Origin: a virus
Direction: 5' to 3' (one strand)
Length of the DNA: 34,017 bases
Virus record (IMG/VR): IMGVR_UViG_3300009506_000136
Span: 1 to 34,017 of that record
Shown here: positions 16,685-33,720 of the stretch, in pieces
Layout: every line of letters starts with the position of its first letter
How positions within the stretch are numbered: position 1 is the stretch's first letter
Program-made: the position numbers and the translations under genes
The notes under the pieces: generated by a model
Told to the model about the DNA's origin: nothing
The model's input: only the letters and a program-made list of their open reading frames with translations
Database searches by the model: none

Positions 16685-16985
16685 TTAATTTGGCCTTGAT
16701 GGTGGCGTCTTTCATGCGATGGTGCGGCTTCTCGCCATACCTGGCTTCATATAATTCTTCCAGTACCGCACGCGGGATTTCTTCTAATACTTCTTCCCCG
16801 GCTTCTTCCGGCTCGGCTTCATGGGCTTTTTCGGCTTCATCCGATTTTTCCTCTCTTTTTGGAATATCACCATAAAATTCCGTTTCCGTGACTGTTTTCC
16901 AGCCGTTTTTTTCATTCAACTCCGCTTCCATCAGCGTATTTGCCATATGTTTTCCGTGTTCTTTATGAATTTGGTAAATAATCAC
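16674..16985 (-). CDS. Acidic head-region protein with GTG start
   Basis: A 103-residue protein. I use the GTG at 16985 because it overlaps the upstream stop as GTGA and because the residues it adds (IHKEHGKHMANTLMEAELNEKNGWKTVTETEFYG) form one coherent motif seen in small phage head proteins. Starting at the inner ATG would cut it. The middle (residues 46-70) is very acidic (EEKSDEAEKAHEAEPEEAGEE) and probably disordered; the end is helical. Possibly a head-completion or scaffold-interacting protein. Confidence 0.7.
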   Translation of the reverse strand: MIIYQIHKEHGKHMANTLMEAELNEKNGWKTVTETEFYGDIPKREEKSDEAEKAHEAEPEEAGEEVLEEIPRAVLEELYEARYGEKPHHRMKDATIKAKLNDD

Positions 16986-18250
16986 GCTGCCCTCCGAATC
17001 AATGCAGATCGTTCAATGAAGTTGATTTCACGGTCATGGCTGGATGCCCATAAAGATAATGCTTCGCCATAGCCTGGATCATCGGCATCATCGGCAATAA
17101 TCGTTTCGGTATCAGGGAAATGCTCAAAAAAGCCCATCCGATAACCCTGATCCCGTGGCGGCCCATCATTTAACCCTAATGCAAAAGTAGTAGGCATATT
17201 CTCCGGCAAGTCGTACCAGCCATCTTTAATTTTACAGTTTACGATATGAATATTAGCCATATCCACGTCAGCCACAAGCGCCATAGCCTCTAATTTCTTC
17301 GCATATTCGGCATCATGTTCCAGACAGTATATCGGCTGATCCGTCACGGCGGCCATGAGAATTGTGGAAAGCCCTGAGCCGGTTTCGATAATCGGCCCCT
17401 GTGCCTTTTGAGCTTCCAGAATTGCCAGGGATAAAACGTCCTCAATCGCACCCCATGGATTATTGATATATTGCCGGGCCTCGATTAGATGATTGATTGT
17501 GGCTTGCGTAAACGGCTCGGTGCGCAACTTATCCACAACGTATTTCAGCGTATTATGGGAATTACGGCGCATCATGGCTCCAAGGCTGTCTGTGATAATC
17601 ACTTTGGCGGCATGGCCTAGCCGTAATTCAGGCAACGCATACATTTTTCCGCCTAACTTGTGCCATTTGCGGCAAAACGTAATATCTCCGCCCCACCGGG
17701 CGCCGCCTTCAAACGTGCGCTCAAACAGGATCGGCACCTTGGATCGACGTTCAGCCCGGTTCACATAATGATCGGCCGTTTCCGCCATTTTTTCGAGGAC
17801 GTGACGGCGTATTTTCATAAAGCCGGTTGGTAATCCGGCAACCTGCAGTAAACCATTCGGCTCCGGTTCCTGGTCAGGGATCAGGAAAACCGGCATCTTT
17901 TCCGCCATGCCCTCGCGGCGATAGGGATAAATCCCGCCACATAAATCGGCGTCAGCATTGCATAATGCAATTAAATCGGCAGGTTGCCAGGAAACATCAG
18001 CATCAAGAAAAATCAGATCGTCGCAATCGGATAAAAGGAACTGCTGAATGACGTTATTTCGCGCATCGTCTACATGACAATTACCCTGCAATAAAAGATA
18101 GGCTGTTTCAATGCCAGCCTTATGTAATGCTTCGCGGGATCGTTGTATTGCGAAAGTATAAGCGGCAGCCGGCACATCATAGGCCGTTGTCGCCAGCAGG
18201 ACTTTATGGCCCTGTTTCGGCTGCCCCTCATCGAAAAAGAGATTGCTCAT
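16982..18250 (-). CDS. Fused glycosyltransferase and SAM-methyltransferase-like protein
   Basis: A 422-residue two-domain protein. Residues 1-225 form a GT-A fold: nucleotide-sugar DXD motif at 81-85 (FLDAD), the acceptor-side GGDITFCRKWHKLGGK (187-202), and LRLGH. Residues about 235-422 look like a class I methyltransferase: motif I IIETGSGLSTIL (287-298), then YCLEHD (308-313) binding the cofactor ribose, and DDADDPG later. It could modify a virion protein or sugar. It lies between the head-fibre and the gp4-like genes. Coupled on both sides by ATGA/GTGA. The DXD favours an active transferase; the methyltransferase half lacks an obvious substrate motif. Confidence 0.75.
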   Translation of the reverse strand: MSNLFFDEGQPKQGHKVLLATTAYDVPAAAYTFAIQRSREALHKAGIETAYLLLQGNCHVDDARNNVIQQFLLSDCDDLIFLDADVSWQPADLIALCNADADLCGGIYPYRREGMAEKMPVFLIPDQEPEPNGLLQVAGLPTGFMKIRRHVLEKMAETADHYVNRAERRSKVPILFERTFEGGARWGGDITFCRKWHKLGGKMYALPELRLGHAAKVIITDSLGAMMRRNSHNTLKYVVDKLRTEPFTQATINHLIEARQYINNPWGAIEDVLSLAILEAQKAQGPIIETGSGLSTILMAAVTDQPIYCLEHDAEYAKKLEAMALVADVDMANIHIVNCKIKDGWYDLPENMPTTFALGLNDGPPRDQGYRMGFFEHFPDTETIIADDADDPGYGEALSLWASSHDREINFIERSALIRRAA

Positions 18251-26332: not shown

Positions 26333-27424
26333 TTACTCAGCTTGTGCTTTAAACATTGCAGGGATATTTCCAGCCTTAGTTTTCTGTTTAGCTTCTCTAG
26401 CTATTTGGGCCTCGATTTCAGGGGAGAAGCCAGCTTGCGGCCTTAGCGCATTAATAACGGGTTCATTATTACGTTCTAACATTTGAATAATCTTATCATC
26501 GAATACGACGAAATTGCGCGAGCCTTCTCCGGCTGCGCGAGAGCCTTGATCGAGATAGCGGATGCCTTTTATTCCGGCCTCATTCAATCCTTCACTAGCA
26601 AATTCAGCCGTTCCGCCTCTATGCTGGCGGTATAATTGATAAATTCCTTCGCCAGTAATATCTGGATTATCAGCATACTCAGGGAATGATTTTCTAATTT
26701 GCTTTCGTATTGGCTCTAGTGCTTTTTGCACTGTTTCCGGCTGTTCACTTAGCGGCTTATCCCAATCAAGGAAATTATTGATATATTTGTCGGGGATGTC
26801 TACTTTGTAGATGTGACCTTTTCCTCTTGAGGCAAATTCATTTAAAGCCGATTGATATGCTTTACCATATTTCTCTTTGCTTATTTCTTGCCCGTTTTTC
26901 AGATATTTCCCATAGTCTTTGCTAAATGCACTGCCTTCTAAATCAAAACGAATTGGTAAAGGTTGCCCAAGATTACCACTCAATTTTGCCTGATAAAATT
27001 TTGCTGTTTCAGGGCTTTCAGCAAAATACAGCCCATGCCCATAGGCTTGCGCGCCTTCACCTGTGCCAATTTTTCCAAGGCTGAATTTCTCGAATAGATG
27101 CGGCGAACCATGAAAGGCTGTGATACCGGCCAATCCGGCACCCGGGAAAACATCCATTAGCGCGGCCTCAGCTTCAGGCGGTAACGGTTGACCAGTTATA
27201 CCAGCTTGGGCTGTCTGAAGCAGTGCGTTTCGGTAATTTTCCAGCCCTTGGCGCAAGTTCTCGCCTGTGACCACATCACGCAGATAGTTGGCTGTGGCCT
27301 GACCTGCCGGGCCTAGGATGGGGCGCGGGGGCATATGGGTCATAGCCAGGACATTGGCCGGGATACGCTGTGGCCGGCCTTCCATCAGAGCATTTCTAAA
27401 TATGGGGTTAGTTAGCCCATCCAT
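26333..27424 (-). CDS. ADP-ribosyltransferase-fold protein (ART-PolyVal-like)
   Basis: A 363-residue protein. Residues 1-95 are helical linker. The ART core starts at ITAFHGSPHLFEKFSLGKIGTGEGAQAYGHGLYFAESPETAKFY (about 101-145), with the His (105) and Tyr (133) of the H-Y type NAD-binding pair. It ends with GIKGIRYLDQGSRA...SRNFVVFDDKIIQMLERN (around 297-325), as in domains found in phage polyvalent proteins. It may modify host proteins after injection. I chose the ATG that overlaps the terminase stop region, with AGGGAG before it; a longer frame has no such site. The gene is AT-rich in its middle and separates terminase from portal, an unusual place. Confidence 0.8.
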   Translation of the reverse strand: MDGLTNPIFRNALMEGRPQRIPANVLAMTHMPPRPILGPAGQATANYLRDVVTGENLRQGLENYRNALLQTAQAGITGQPLPPEAEAALMDVFPGAGLAGITAFHGSPHLFEKFSLGKIGTGEGAQAYGHGLYFAESPETAKFYQAKLSGNLGQPLPIRFDLEGSAFSKDYGKYLKNGQEISKEKYGKAYQSALNEFASRGKGHIYKVDIPDKYINNFLDWDKPLSEQPETVQKALEPIRKQIRKSFPEYADNPDITGEGIYQLYRQHRGGTAEFASEGLNEAGIKGIRYLDQGSRAAGEGSRNFVVFDDKIIQMLERNNEPVINALRPQAGFSPEIEAQIAREAKQKTKAGNIPAMFKAQAE

Positions 27425-28764
27425 GCCCCACTCCCTGAATAGTGCGATCGTCGTGGTGTGCGTTCTTTCATTTCCGTTTCTTCTTTTACCAGCCCAGGAA
27501 ATAATGAGGACATAGCCCAAATGAAGGCATCAGCCCGGTTAGGCGACTGCTCCCCGATATAACCCTGCGTCGTAAATGAGTATAACTCATCCTCAAGTTC
27601 TGGAAAGTCACCGGCAAACCGTATCTTACCTTGTTCCTGCAGGCTGGCGATAGGCTCGGCTCTGACTTGCTTGCCCCTGGTTGCTGTGACCTTGCGGAAA
27701 GGGACGCGGGGCTTGGCGGTTCTTACCACGAATTTTACCATCTCCCCGCCATAATTGGTTTCAGCCACGATTGCATCAGCGTTATGGTTATCATAGGCGT
27801 CTGTAGCCACTTTACCCCAGGTTGCCGGGCCTGCCTTCACGGTCAGATCGTCCAGCACATAGCCATTTCCATCGGTGCCCAATCCGGCCACGACAATCCC
27901 TATGGCGTCATTGTGGGCGTTGTCATTGTCTCCTGAGCCTGATGGGTCAACCGCCACCACGACGCGCACCATATCCGGCAAATCATCCATAGCGCGCCAT
28001 TTATCAATGGTCTCATACGTCCACAGGGCGTTTTCAGTGGTATCAGCGTATTTGCCCTCGTAGAACCGCTTACGCATCCTGGCCGGCATGTTCTTAAGCA
28101 TATTCAGATAGGTCGCCGGTAGATTTTCCTCATTATCAGACGGGTTAATCTGCATAGAGGCATAATCATCGGGGTCGGGCAGGGGCTTATTCGTTTCCGG
28201 GTCGCGCTTTTGCTCGAACAGTTTAAATGACCAATGAGCCTGGGATGGCGGGTTACAGTCAAAAAACATCTTGAGGCGTAAAGTGCCTTTCTTACCTTCA
28301 AGCTCATAATCACAGACTTGGGCCAGGCGGGTTTGTGCCAGCATGACCGATGACCAGGGGATCTGACTGGATTCATTGAGATAAATAGTGGCGTATTCCT
28401 GGCCTAATATCTTCTCAGTGCGTTCTTTGTCATCCAGTCCACCAAACCAGATTTGGCTGCCATTGGGAAATTGTACAAACCAGTCTGTTTTGTCGAGCCG
28501 GCAGGGAACATCAGGGAAGCATAGGGCCATGACCTTGGGAAAGGTATCGTGGACTATAGAGGCTTTAACGTGATTGAACCGGAAACGCAGGATGGCATGA
28601 CGTGAATGTGCTGCGGCCAAGGCTCTAACAACAACGGCCCGGACAATGATAAACGTCTTACCTGACCGAGAACCGCCAAACAGCATCACATAGATGGCGG
28701 CCAATGCAAACAAAGCCATAGCCTGGCCTTGCTTGGCGGTCAGTTTAAAGGATTTCCGCGTCAC
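27412..28764 (-). CDS. terL: Terminase large subunit
   Basis: A 450-residue packaging motor. ATPase: Walker A GGSRSGKT (30-37), Walker B ATIYLNE (125-131). Nuclease: RVVVAVDPSGSG (Asp273), DAIVAETNYGG (Glu335), NRADAFIWAMSS (Asp412), a complete RNase-H-like set. It pumps DNA into the procapsid through the portal and cuts the concatemer. It overlaps the small-subunit gene by 20 bp. Whether it packages by headful or from fixed ends cannot be told from the sequence alone. Confidence 0.95.
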   Translation of the reverse strand: MTRKSFKLTAKQGQAMALFALAAIYVMLFGGSRSGKTFIIVRAVVVRALAAAHSRHAILRFRFNHVKASIVHDTFPKVMALCFPDVPCRLDKTDWFVQFPNGSQIWFGGLDDKERTEKILGQEYATIYLNESSQIPWSSVMLAQTRLAQVCDYELEGKKGTLRLKMFFDCNPPSQAHWSFKLFEQKRDPETNKPLPDPDDYASMQINPSDNEENLPATYLNMLKNMPARMRKRFYEGKYADTTENALWTYETIDKWRAMDDLPDMVRVVVAVDPSGSGDNDNAHNDAIGIVVAGLGTDGNGYVLDDLTVKAGPATWGKVATDAYDNHNADAIVAETNYGGEMVKFVVRTAKPRVPFRKVTATRGKQVRAEPIASLQEQGKIRFAGDFPELEDELYSFTTQGYIGEQSPNRADAFIWAMSSLFPGLVKEETEMKERTPRRSHYSGSGAWMG

Positions 28765-29035
28765 TTTGCAGCAGCTTTACAATGATTTCGCCATTATCGC
28801 CAGTACCCTCGATAATTTGGGCCGGCTTGCCATCTATCCTGTCGCCCAGTTCCTTGATAGCCCACTGGTCACCATTGACAGCAGCATTTACAAATTCATC
28901 AGCTACCAAGTCCAACCCGCCATCAATATTGCTATCAGCCTTACGAGCGAGCGCCCGCTTAATGGCCTGTTCCCATAGTTTGGCCTTTTTAGCGTTGCTG
29001 TTGCCTGTTGGCGCGCCTGCTTTTCCGTGTGCCAT
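28745..29035 (-). CDS. Terminase small subunit (putative)
   Basis: A 96-residue protein with GAPTGNSNAKKAKLWEQAIKRALARK, VADEFVNAAVNGDQWAIKELGDRIDGKPAQ, the pattern of small terminase-like proteins beside this type of TerL: a basic DNA-binding start, helices, and a GDRxDGKPAQ turn. It would recognise the packaging start. An AT-rich leader without a good Shine-Dalgarno site precedes it. Confidence 0.78.
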   Translation of the reverse strand: MAHGKAGAPTGNSNAKKAKLWEQAIKRALARKADSNIDGGLDLVADEFVNAAVNGDQWAIKELGDRIDGKPAQIIEGTGDNGEIIVKLLQSDAEIL

Positions 29036-29697: not shown

Positions 29698-29903
29698 GCC
29701 AGCATATTCCTTTTTTTCGGAATTTTGGCGCCACGTTTGCGGGCCTGGGAAATATTAACAGCAGCGGCTTGTTTTTGCGCTCCGGATTGCGAAGCATGCC
29801 CACCTCCATCAAGCGCGGTGCCGGATGCGTTTTTGGCGATGGCACCGGTATCAACTTCAACCACACGCCATTTTTTCTTAATTTTTTTGGTTGTCAGAGG
29901 CAT
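29694..29903 (-). CDS. Basic protein, 69 aa
   Basis: Starts MPLTTKKIKKKWRVVEVDTG and is Lys/Arg-rich throughout, with a low-complexity Ala/Gly/Gln middle. The ATG lies inside the end of the upstream gene, which favours this start over a longer frame. Could bind nucleic acid. No family recognised. Confidence 0.55.
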   Translation of the reverse strand: MPLTTKKIKKKWRVVEVDTGAIAKNASGTALDGGGHASQSGAQKQAAAVNISQARKRGAKIPKKRNMLA

Positions 29904-30169
29904 TCTGTTTGTCTCATCGGGTTCCAATCAATCCCGTTATCATTCAAATCCTGCCATGTGCATTTTCGATGATCTGATAATGGTTTTAAATGGCTTTCAT
30001 GCCAGCAGCAATTCGCACCTATTATGTTTTTTTCTGCGCCTTCCACATGCCAATGATTCTCACGGTATAATTCAGGGCGAATAATTCTTCCAATAGTGCC
30101 TATATGATGTTTCATGCGGGCATTATTGCAAGCTATTATTTCGACCAATATCCCTGTATCTATTTCCAT
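29894..30169 (-). CDS. Hypothetical protein with His/Cys cluster, 91 aa
   Basis: Residues 1-48 (EIDTGILVEIIACNNARMKHHIGTIGRIIRPEL...HWHVEG) resemble a small beta barrel. The second half has CCWHESHLKPL and DHRKCTWQD, a possible metal site. It follows, by 49 nt, the structured RNA element at 30218-30330, which would form part of its leader. Confidence 0.6.
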   Translation of the reverse strand: MEIDTGILVEIIACNNARMKHHIGTIGRIIRPELYRENHWHVEGAEKNIIGANCCWHESHLKPLSDHRKCTWQDLNDNGIDWNPMRQTECL

Positions 30170-30217
30170 TACATAAAATATACCGGCTTGGCTATATTAC
30201 GGCGTCAAATGGTTGCC

Positions 30218-30330
30218 TGGCCGCCCGCTTTTACCCATTTTCCAGGATAAATAAATAAGGGGCATCCTGGAAATGAGATATAGCCCCTTCGCTATCTAAC
30301 CGGCCGATAGCTTTGGAGGGAAGGCGGCCA
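30218..30330 (-). ncRNA. Candidate pseudoknotted leader RNA
   Basis: No gene fits in this 190-bp gap. A closing 8-bp helix (30218-30225 with 30323-30330) encloses a 10-bp stem (30239-30248 with 30264-30273) and a 7-bp stem (30257-30263 with 30283-30289) that interleave as an H-type pseudoknot with no unpaired base at their junction. A further 6-bp hairpin follows (30291-30296 with 30306-30311). Both strands could fold, but genes lie only on the minus strand, so I infer a leader for the gene at 30169. It matches no riboswitch or ribozyme consensus that I can recall. Confidence 0.5.
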
Positions 30331-30359
30331 CCCCAATTTATTACAGTGTAGCATAGAAA

Positions 30360-30581
30360 TTAATCCGGTAAATCATCCCATATTTCCTTTATTTCCGCTA
30401 CTTTATCGATCCAGCCGGCCATTAAAGCCAGCATTACGATTTCCATAATGCCATATGACAATGGATTAATCGGCAGATCATGGAAATGCCATAAATACAT
30501 AAACGTATAGACCGTCAGCCAGAACATGACAAACGCCTCAAAAAAACTGATAAATATGGTGCCGTATTTATCCTGGAACAT
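30360..30581 (-). CDS. Two-helix membrane protein, 73 aa
   Basis: Two hydrophobic segments (IFISFFEAFVMFWLTVYTFMYLW, about 9-31, and YGIMEIVMLALMAGW, about 43-57) followed by an acidic tail (VAEIKEIWDDLPD). Probably an inner-membrane protein with both ends on the same side. Unknown function; lies directly upstream of the structured RNA. Confidence 0.6.
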   Translation of the reverse strand: MFQDKYGTIFISFFEAFVMFWLTVYTFMYLWHFHDLPINPLSYGIMEIVMLALMAGWIDKVAEIKEIWDDLPD

Positions 30582-30584
30582 AAA

Positions 30585-30845
30585 TCACCTGTGACAGATT
30601 TGGAAATAGCCTCTCGGTTTATTAATAACATCAGGAAAATAAAAATAATTCTTGAATGTTCGAATATCGAGCAATGCCGGGAAAATAGACACGTAATCCA
30701 TACCGCAAGCCAAGCAGGTTAAATAAGTGCGATTATCTTGATAGTTGGCAACATGAACCGCAAAAGCGGTCGATTTTCTGCAGACAGGGCAATTATACCG
30801 GTGCTGCAGCGGAATAAGCTGAAAACTGGGAAATTGTAGCTGCAT
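30585..30845 (-). CDS. Zinc-ribbon protein, 86 aa
   Basis: Two C-x2-C knuckles (YNCPVCRKSTAFAVHV at about 18-33 and YLTCLACGMDYVSIFP at 41-56) form a classic zinc ribbon; the remainder is aromatic. It may bind DNA or RNA. It sits right behind a terminator-like hairpin, so its expression may be damped. Confidence 0.6.
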   Translation of the reverse strand: MQLQFPSFQLIPLQHRYNCPVCRKSTAFAVHVANYQDNRTYLTCLACGMDYVSIFPALLDIRTFKNYFYFPDVINKPRGYFQICHR

Positions 30846-33067: not shown

Positions 33068-33364
33068 TTACCTCATCCTTTTTTTAGAGCATAAAAGTCA
33101 TTTAGACCGTTTGTGATAGGGGTTTATTATGTACCCCTGTCTACAGGACAGATCGTCTAAGTCCTCGCGCCTACAAGTATCAGCATTGTCCTTCACGGTT
33201 TTAGGGCTTGTGATAACCCTGGGAACCGCCAGCCACCCTAACCCATCACATAACGAAGGTTTTAATGGCCTCGCCGGTCTCAAGCGAGTGATACAGGTTT
33301 GTTTAGCACGTGGATAGCCCGCCACCGTTGGTATACCCGTCCGGGGTCTGGTAGGCTTTAATCG

Positions 33365-33412
33365 AAAAAACTGATTGACAGGATAGAATTGATTGGTAGA
33401 ATTAATCCTGTC
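33365..33412 (-). terminator. Promoter-proximal hairpin plus U-tract, copy 2
   Basis: Stem 33405-33412 with 33377-33384 on the minus strand, then six Ts (33365-33370). Same sequence as copy 1. If it ends transcription, the late genes need an antiterminator. Confidence 0.45.
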
Positions 33413-33437
33413 TAGGCCGCTAAACCAGACATAAAAA

Positions 33438-33466
33438 ATCATAATCGTAAACTCCCTTGTTTGCAA
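33438..33466 (-). promoter_or_regulatory. Leftward sigma70-like promoter in leader repeat copy 2
   Basis: TTGCAA (33461-33466) and TATGAT (33438-33443) on the minus strand with 17 bp between. Predicted start near 33431. It is placed to drive the long leftward late operon that begins with the zinc-ribbon gene at 33067. Confidence 0.6.
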
Positions 33467-33475
33467 GTGATTTAA

Positions 33476-33500
33476 CCCCGCCTCATCAGCGGGGTTTTTT
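33476..33500 (+). terminator. Rightward terminator at repeat edge, copy 2
   Basis: CCCCGC (33476-33481) pairs with GCGGGG (33489-33494), then six Ts. The loop differs by one base from copy 1 while the stem is intact. Confidence 0.65.
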
Positions 33501-33501
33501 A

Positions 33502-33720
33502 TTACCTGAGGACATATCTTGCATAGCGCACTTTATGACCCCGGCGGTTCTGGCCGGTCTCGTTTACTGTTTCGATATTGTGGCCCATCTGCCGTAGCTC
33601 ATGGATTCTGGCACCTAAGCGGTACAGGCCAAGCTTATTTAGCGCATCCCAATGGGTAACGCCTGATTTTTTACAGCGTTTCAGCAACTTCAAAACTTCT
33701 TTTTGTCCGTAATTTAACAT
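33502..33720 (-). CDS. Small helix-turn-helix protein (HTH_39-like), copy 2
   Basis: A 72-residue homologue of the protein at 589-804, about 65% identical: LLKRCKKSGVTHWDALNKLGLYRLGARIHELRQMGHNIETV and the invariant YARYVLR end. Strong GAGG site before the ATG. Here its stop touches the leader repeat directly, without the extra 61-residue gene seen in copy 1. It belongs to the next phage unit. Confidence 0.75.
   Translation of the reverse strand: MLNYGQKEVLKLLKRCKKSGVTHWDALNKLGLYRLGARIHELRQMGHNIETVNETGQNRRGHKVRYARYVLR

Follow-up and report, generated by a model that had tools for sequence, protein, structure and literature searches.

The gap between two small genes at about 30.2 kb of the virus record IMGVR_UViG_3300009506_000136 very probably holds a functional, structured, non-coding RNA of the minus strand. 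Judged from its sequence, this element is a previously uncatalogued folded RNA and probably a control leader of the gene that follows it. Its organisation as a closed minus-strand domain, in which a helix (P1) encloses two hairpins (P2 and P3), is shown by comparison with one relative. Throughout, the window is the whole stretch of DNA analysed, all 34,017 nt of this 34-kb record.

The locus and its gene neighbourhood

Every gene near 30.2 kb is encoded on the minus strand, and the series of genes that follows the element leads to terS/terL/portal in a phage that also has Erf, NinB and P22-type head genes. The relative used for comparison, IMGVR_UViG_3300010413_000323 (L039), came from a search of viral contigs with the large terminase (TerL), which returned 24 loci; its TerL is 99% identical, it has the same small-gene neighbourhood and it carries the element in the same gap. 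In the order of minus-strand reading, the features of the locus are:

30360-30581, minus strand: upstream 73-aa ORF, 56% protein identity to its counterpart in L039
30170-30359: intergenic gap of 190 nt between two minus-strand ORFs, holding the element
30350-30355, minus strand: -10-like TATGCT in a conserved block, TCTATGCTAnACTG, a possible promoter of the leader; conserved in L039
30218-30330 (~113 nt), minus strand: structured RNA element with P1, P2, P3 and a possible pseudoknot
29894-30169, minus strand: downstream 91-aa gene, ATG at 30169, the likely cis target; 58% identical in L039
29694-29903, minus strand: gene for a DUF6496 protein (Pfam match)
28745-29035, minus strand: probable small terminase, assigned from its position; no family match
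27412-28764, minus strand: TerL (PHROG match)

Two further ORFs lie between the DUF6496 gene and the probable small terminase. The 91-aa protein has no match in Pfam or PHROG and its predicted structure, with a mean pLDDT of 46.6, is too poor for use. No Shine-Dalgarno match of note precedes its gene, which is no special sign because this is common in this phage.

Several other features of the window and its relative were recorded alongside. The terminase pair (27412-29035, against 4848-6468 in L039) is 98–99% identical between the two phages and both proteins flanking the element are below 60%; L039 also has ~2 kb of other genes between its DUF6496 gene and terS. On the sequences compared, this contrast, together with the additional ~2 kb, is a mosaic junction. 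Within the same gene run, a small protein (30585-30845, minus strand) shows weak zinc-ribbon similarity (Elf1-like, E 2e-4, under the Pfam cut-off). Among the head genes, a 422-aa protein (16982-18250, minus strand) matches phrog_1574, a PHROG of unknown function, and is one that we take, by sequence impression only, to be glycosyltransferase-like. The protein encoded between TerL and portal (26333-27520, minus strand) matches part of a very long PHROG, phrog_873, annotated as endolysin; its HGSPHLFEKF...GLYFAE stretch recalls, again as our impression only, ADP-ribosyltransferase-like phage domains. Near both ends of the record lies a direct repeat, 96% identical (1-411 and 33088-33503), which suggests that the genome is circular or terminally redundant and was assembled from close variants.

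The domain and its conservation

The helices of the domain are distributed as follows:

30323-30330, minus strand: 5' strand of the closing helix P1, UGGCCGCC; 8 bp with 30218-30225, one C-G pair becoming U-G in L039
30218-30225, minus strand: 3' strand of P1, GGCGGCCA, pairing with 30323-30330
30291-30311, minus strand: hairpin P2, loop GGCCGGUUA; 6 bp, 30306-30311 with 30291-30296
30264-30277, minus strand: 5' strand of hairpin P3; 10-bp stem (30264-30273) and 4-bp extension (30274-30277)
30234-30248, minus strand: 3' strand of P3; 30239-30248 and 30234-30237, with a bulged base at 30238

An initial sequence-only reading of the window had proposed four stems here, of 10, 7, 8 and 6 bp, and all four lie where it put them, including the 7-bp stem (30257-30263 with 30283-30289) that abuts the 10-bp stem (30239-30248 with 30264-30273) with zero spacer. 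What that reading had lacked are the four further conserved pairs by which P3 is lengthened beyond its 10-bp stem. An interleaved pair of 7 and 10 bp with zero spacer occurs once in the window and is absent when the full 34-kb sequence is dinucleotide-shuffled (30 shuffles); chance is no explanation for the stems. On either strand, the fold of the 141-nt region is better than those of its shuffles (z about -2.4 to -2.5).

The element had also been placed in a gap without a gene, shortly before a start codon, and this holds: P1 ends 48 nt ahead of the ATG at 30169, and no reading frame across the gap is open in both the window and L039. A coding explanation was rejected on the same grounds, with gap frames interrupted in one or both phages. 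Minus is the strand to read because the element ends just ahead of the ATG of a minus-strand gene and the flanking ORFs are on the minus strand; the plus-strand reading was rejected on gene direction and on the G-U changes described below.

The gap is 81% identical between the window and L039 (80.5% for the element), against 62–67% (DNA) and 56–58% (protein) for the flanking genes, and this non-coding sequence is therefore better conserved than the genes on either side of it. When the nested pairs (P1, 8; P2, 6; P3, 10+4) were scored on a sequence-only alignment of the two, all 28 were standard in both sequences, with 13 of the 56 paired columns differing. Four pairs have undergone double compensatory change: two in P2 (A-U to G-C and U-A to C-G), which also has one G-C to G-U change, and two in P3 (U-A to A-U and G-C to A-U), which also has three wobble changes. 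By simulation, with the same substitutions placed at random on the paired columns 200,000 times, the probability of all 28 pairs surviving by chance is ~5e-4. In controls with slid partners, paired cells fall from 100% to 35–50% and at most one double change is seen; a shuffle control, which is weak with two sequences, reaches the observed value in 28 of 500 cases. Loss of the stems in relatives had been named in advance as the outcome that would count against the structure; in the one relative, L039, each of the 8-, 6- and 10-bp stems is intact.

Read on the minus strand, all five one-sided changes are to or from G-U, whereas a plus-strand reading turns them into A-C mismatches. These bear on whether the element acts at the level of DNA, as protein-binding inverted repeats or as a packaging or replication site, a notion for which one might cite the inverted repeats themselves and their position ~1.2 kb from the terminase genes. 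We consider it highly improbable: five of five changes in the sense favouring RNA would be expected in 1 of 32 cases were strand irrelevant, and the element comprises several interleaved and nested helices. The initial proposal of a compact structured RNA in an intergenic leader is thus supported by compensatory changes, by a gap better conserved than its neighbouring genes and by the absence of an Rfam match, and a conserved minus-strand RNA structure is the only good reading of the combined evidence.

A possible pseudoknot and its nested competitor

Three segments are concerned in the proposed pseudoknot:

30283-30289, minus strand: GGGGC hub, the 5' strand of the proposed pseudoknot stem (AAGGGGC); invariant in L039 except at 30288 (A to U)
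30257-30263, minus strand: 3' strand of the proposed stem (GCCCCUU), in the P3 apical loop; invariant in L039
30315-30320, minus strand: CCCUCC of J1/2, the nested competitor for GGGG; pairs with the hub in both nested ensembles

The earlier description of the element as a classic H-type pseudoknot stands in part: the interleaved stems are present and are absent from shuffles, but as the defining fold the pseudoknot is no more than a possibility, with a nested rival, which the initial reading had not noted, favoured by nearest-neighbour energies. Its core of five G+C pairs, GGGGC (30283-30287) with GCCCC (30259-30263), is unchanged in L039, so that covariation speaks neither for nor against it; the two outer A-U pairs of the 7-bp stem have fared differently, one being kept and the other becoming U-U. 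The CCCC of the P3 loop is unpaired with a probability of ~1 in the nested ensembles, and such conservation within a loop suggests some role for these residues. Nested folding pairs the G residues of the hub with CCCUCC in both sequences, in different registers.

A rough sum for the knotted domain, made from helix energies with a duplex-initiation term of about 4 kcal/mol removed, comes to about -51.5 kcal/mol for the window and -42 kcal/mol for L039 before any pseudoknot penalty, and the nested minima lie near -50 kcal/mol in both sequences. The usual pseudoknot penalty is 7–10 kcal/mol and, once this is added to the knotted sums, the nested fold is the favoured ground state. The knot and the 4-bp extension of P3 are probably mutually exclusive, because only 5 nt are left to cross 14 bp once the extension has formed.

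A possible switch ahead of the start codon

In both phages the hub segment GGGGCUAUAU is also complementary, over 8 bp, to a stretch that lies ~20 nt ahead of the start codon. Conserved complementary segments that run on toward the start codon had not figured in the initial reading; they are:

30278-30285, minus strand: GGCUAUAU, candidate switch strand, complementary to 30190-30197 at all 8 positions; unchanged in L039
30190-30197, minus strand: AUAUAGCC, counterpart of the candidate switch strand, ~20 nt short of the ATG; same sequence in L039
30182-30188, minus strand: AGCCGGU, able to form 7 pairs with the P2 loop (30298-30304) in either phage

Through two differences in the loop, the pairing of AGCCGGU with P2 has two wobbles in the window and is entirely Watson-Crick in L039. 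In the nested ensemble of L039 the hub pairs with 30190-30197 at P ~0.77 and P1 is opened; the ensemble of the window keeps P1. A switch is only suggestive, because an 8-nt complement between the downstream segment and the element arises in ~4% of shuffles; between the only two sequences the switch helix, like the pseudoknot core, shows no change and so no covariation.

From these features we propose, at about even chances of being right, that the element is a bistable structured 5' leader governing translation of the 91-aa gene; as only two members are known, this function is something that we infer. On the minus-strand transcript, the leader would lie downstream of the promoter-like block and upstream of the ATG of the 91-aa gene. 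In one state, GGGGCUAUAU would be kept within the closed domain, its partner being either CCCUCC, which lies upstream, or GCCCC of the P3 loop; the latter pairing would make an H-type pseudoknot. In the other, GGCUAUAU would pair with AUAUAGCC and P1 would be opened. On the analogy of T4 gp32, a ligand would tip the balance toward one of the states; it is most likely a protein, whether the 91-aa product itself or a different one made by the phage. Translation of the 91-aa gene, and perhaps of the following genes, would thereby go up or down. More speculatively, the element may represent a hitherto undescribed class of phage leader able to switch: its G-rich hub would pick pseudoknot, nested helix or start-codon-adjacent pairing, perhaps in response to a metabolite or protein, upstream of the packaging genes; this broader idea is tentative and less likely than not.

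The sequence upstream of the domain bears on other functions. The exact block TCTATGCTAnACTG occurs once in the window and has no -35 consensus; no terminator-like site was found in the gap, with one nearby against 2.0 expected. Because this conserved -10-like block precedes the element, and because the gene run enters the packaging and head genes, the strongest rival is a put-like or late-operon leader RNA that would act on the polymerase transcribing those genes and bring about read-through of terminators. The element sits directly behind the block and heads the long same-strand run to terS/terL/portal, much as HK022 putL lies just behind its promoter and works as a folded RNA acting alone (PMC9378689). 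The two are alike as compact phage leader folds close behind a promoter, which here is only a possible one. HK022 put RNA, however, is ~70 nt, folds as two stem-loops in a V shape and serves early operons, with neither a closing helix nor start-codon pairing, whereas the element is a 113-nt domain closed by the 8-bp P1; by architecture it was not accepted as a put RNA. The missing -35 also tells against a put-like role, which would leave the conserved complementarity toward the start codon unexplained, and we regard such a role as unlikely.

One might equally suppose that the promoter-like block gives rise to an independent small RNA acting in trans on host or phage RNA or protein, a supposition with which the compact domain behind the block and the unpaired, invariant apical GCCCCUU are consistent. 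The gap has no terminator with which to end such a transcript, however, and conservation extends beyond the domain toward the start codon, which makes this decidedly doubtful.

Relation to known RNAs and extent of the family

The initial reading had recognised no known class, and a search of the window against Rfam 15 agrees, with 0 matches at gathering score; up to E = 10 there were only two chance-level matches, the best in the region reaching 14–15 bits against gathering scores of 33.8 and 55. In HDV topology, P3 is flanked by the 5' strand of P2 on one side and the 3' strand of P1 on the other; the corresponding arms abut here, and an HDV-like topology was rejected from structural knowledge rather than a model search. 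A K-turn at the AAA/GA internal loop beside P2 was likewise rejected, the bulged strand having no GA. A new kind of self-cleaving ribozyme or of metabolite riboswitch would accord with a compact domain, a possible pseudoknot and the failure of known Rfam classes to match, yet it is improbable: there is no recognised catalytic or ligand core, no metabolic gene lies downstream, only two members are known and nothing specific supports either activity.

The proposal of a translational leader finds a counterpart in the gene 32 operator of T4 and RB69, a phage mRNA leader in which a pseudoknot precedes the start codon (PMC535899), a position shared by the H-type pseudoknot proposed here. The T4 pseudoknot is ~28 nt and is followed by UUAAA repeats, whereas here a 113-nt closed domain carries extra hairpins and no UUAAA/UAAA repeats of that type occur between 30217 and 30170. 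T4 gene 32 encodes a single-strand-binding protein; here the gene downstream is the unrecognised 91-aa gene. Membership of the gene 32-type autogenous operators was rejected on the missing repeats and on a downstream protein that matches no family. The T4 gene 32 operator and HK022 put RNA are the nearest functional models, the element belonging to neither on the features compared.

The known members of the family are the window and L039. DNA searches of phages and plasmids gave no match, nor did searches of phages with the downstream, upstream and DUF6496 proteins or of plasmids with the downstream protein; in viral contigs, the downstream and upstream proteins found only the contig of L039. 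Four DNA-pattern scans of the viral collection gave only L039/L071 as real. A covariance model, narrow because it was built from two sequences, found no further member at the loci of TerL relatives in the viral and genome collections, some of which have no upstream region. Run on ~1,460 genomes selected around the TerL relatives (three bacterial orders and one class), it gave only two weak hits, which were taken as chance because every helix was skipped.

Implications

Structured leaders outside Rfam are hard to detect by similarity in uncultivated phages because their families are tiny. The present element was spotted in a single sequence and was later supported by compensatory changes in a relative. 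Should it prove to be only an ordinary leader, it would be a small new RNA family; if the switch is true, it would be a defined and testable RNA control point just ahead of the phage packaging genes.
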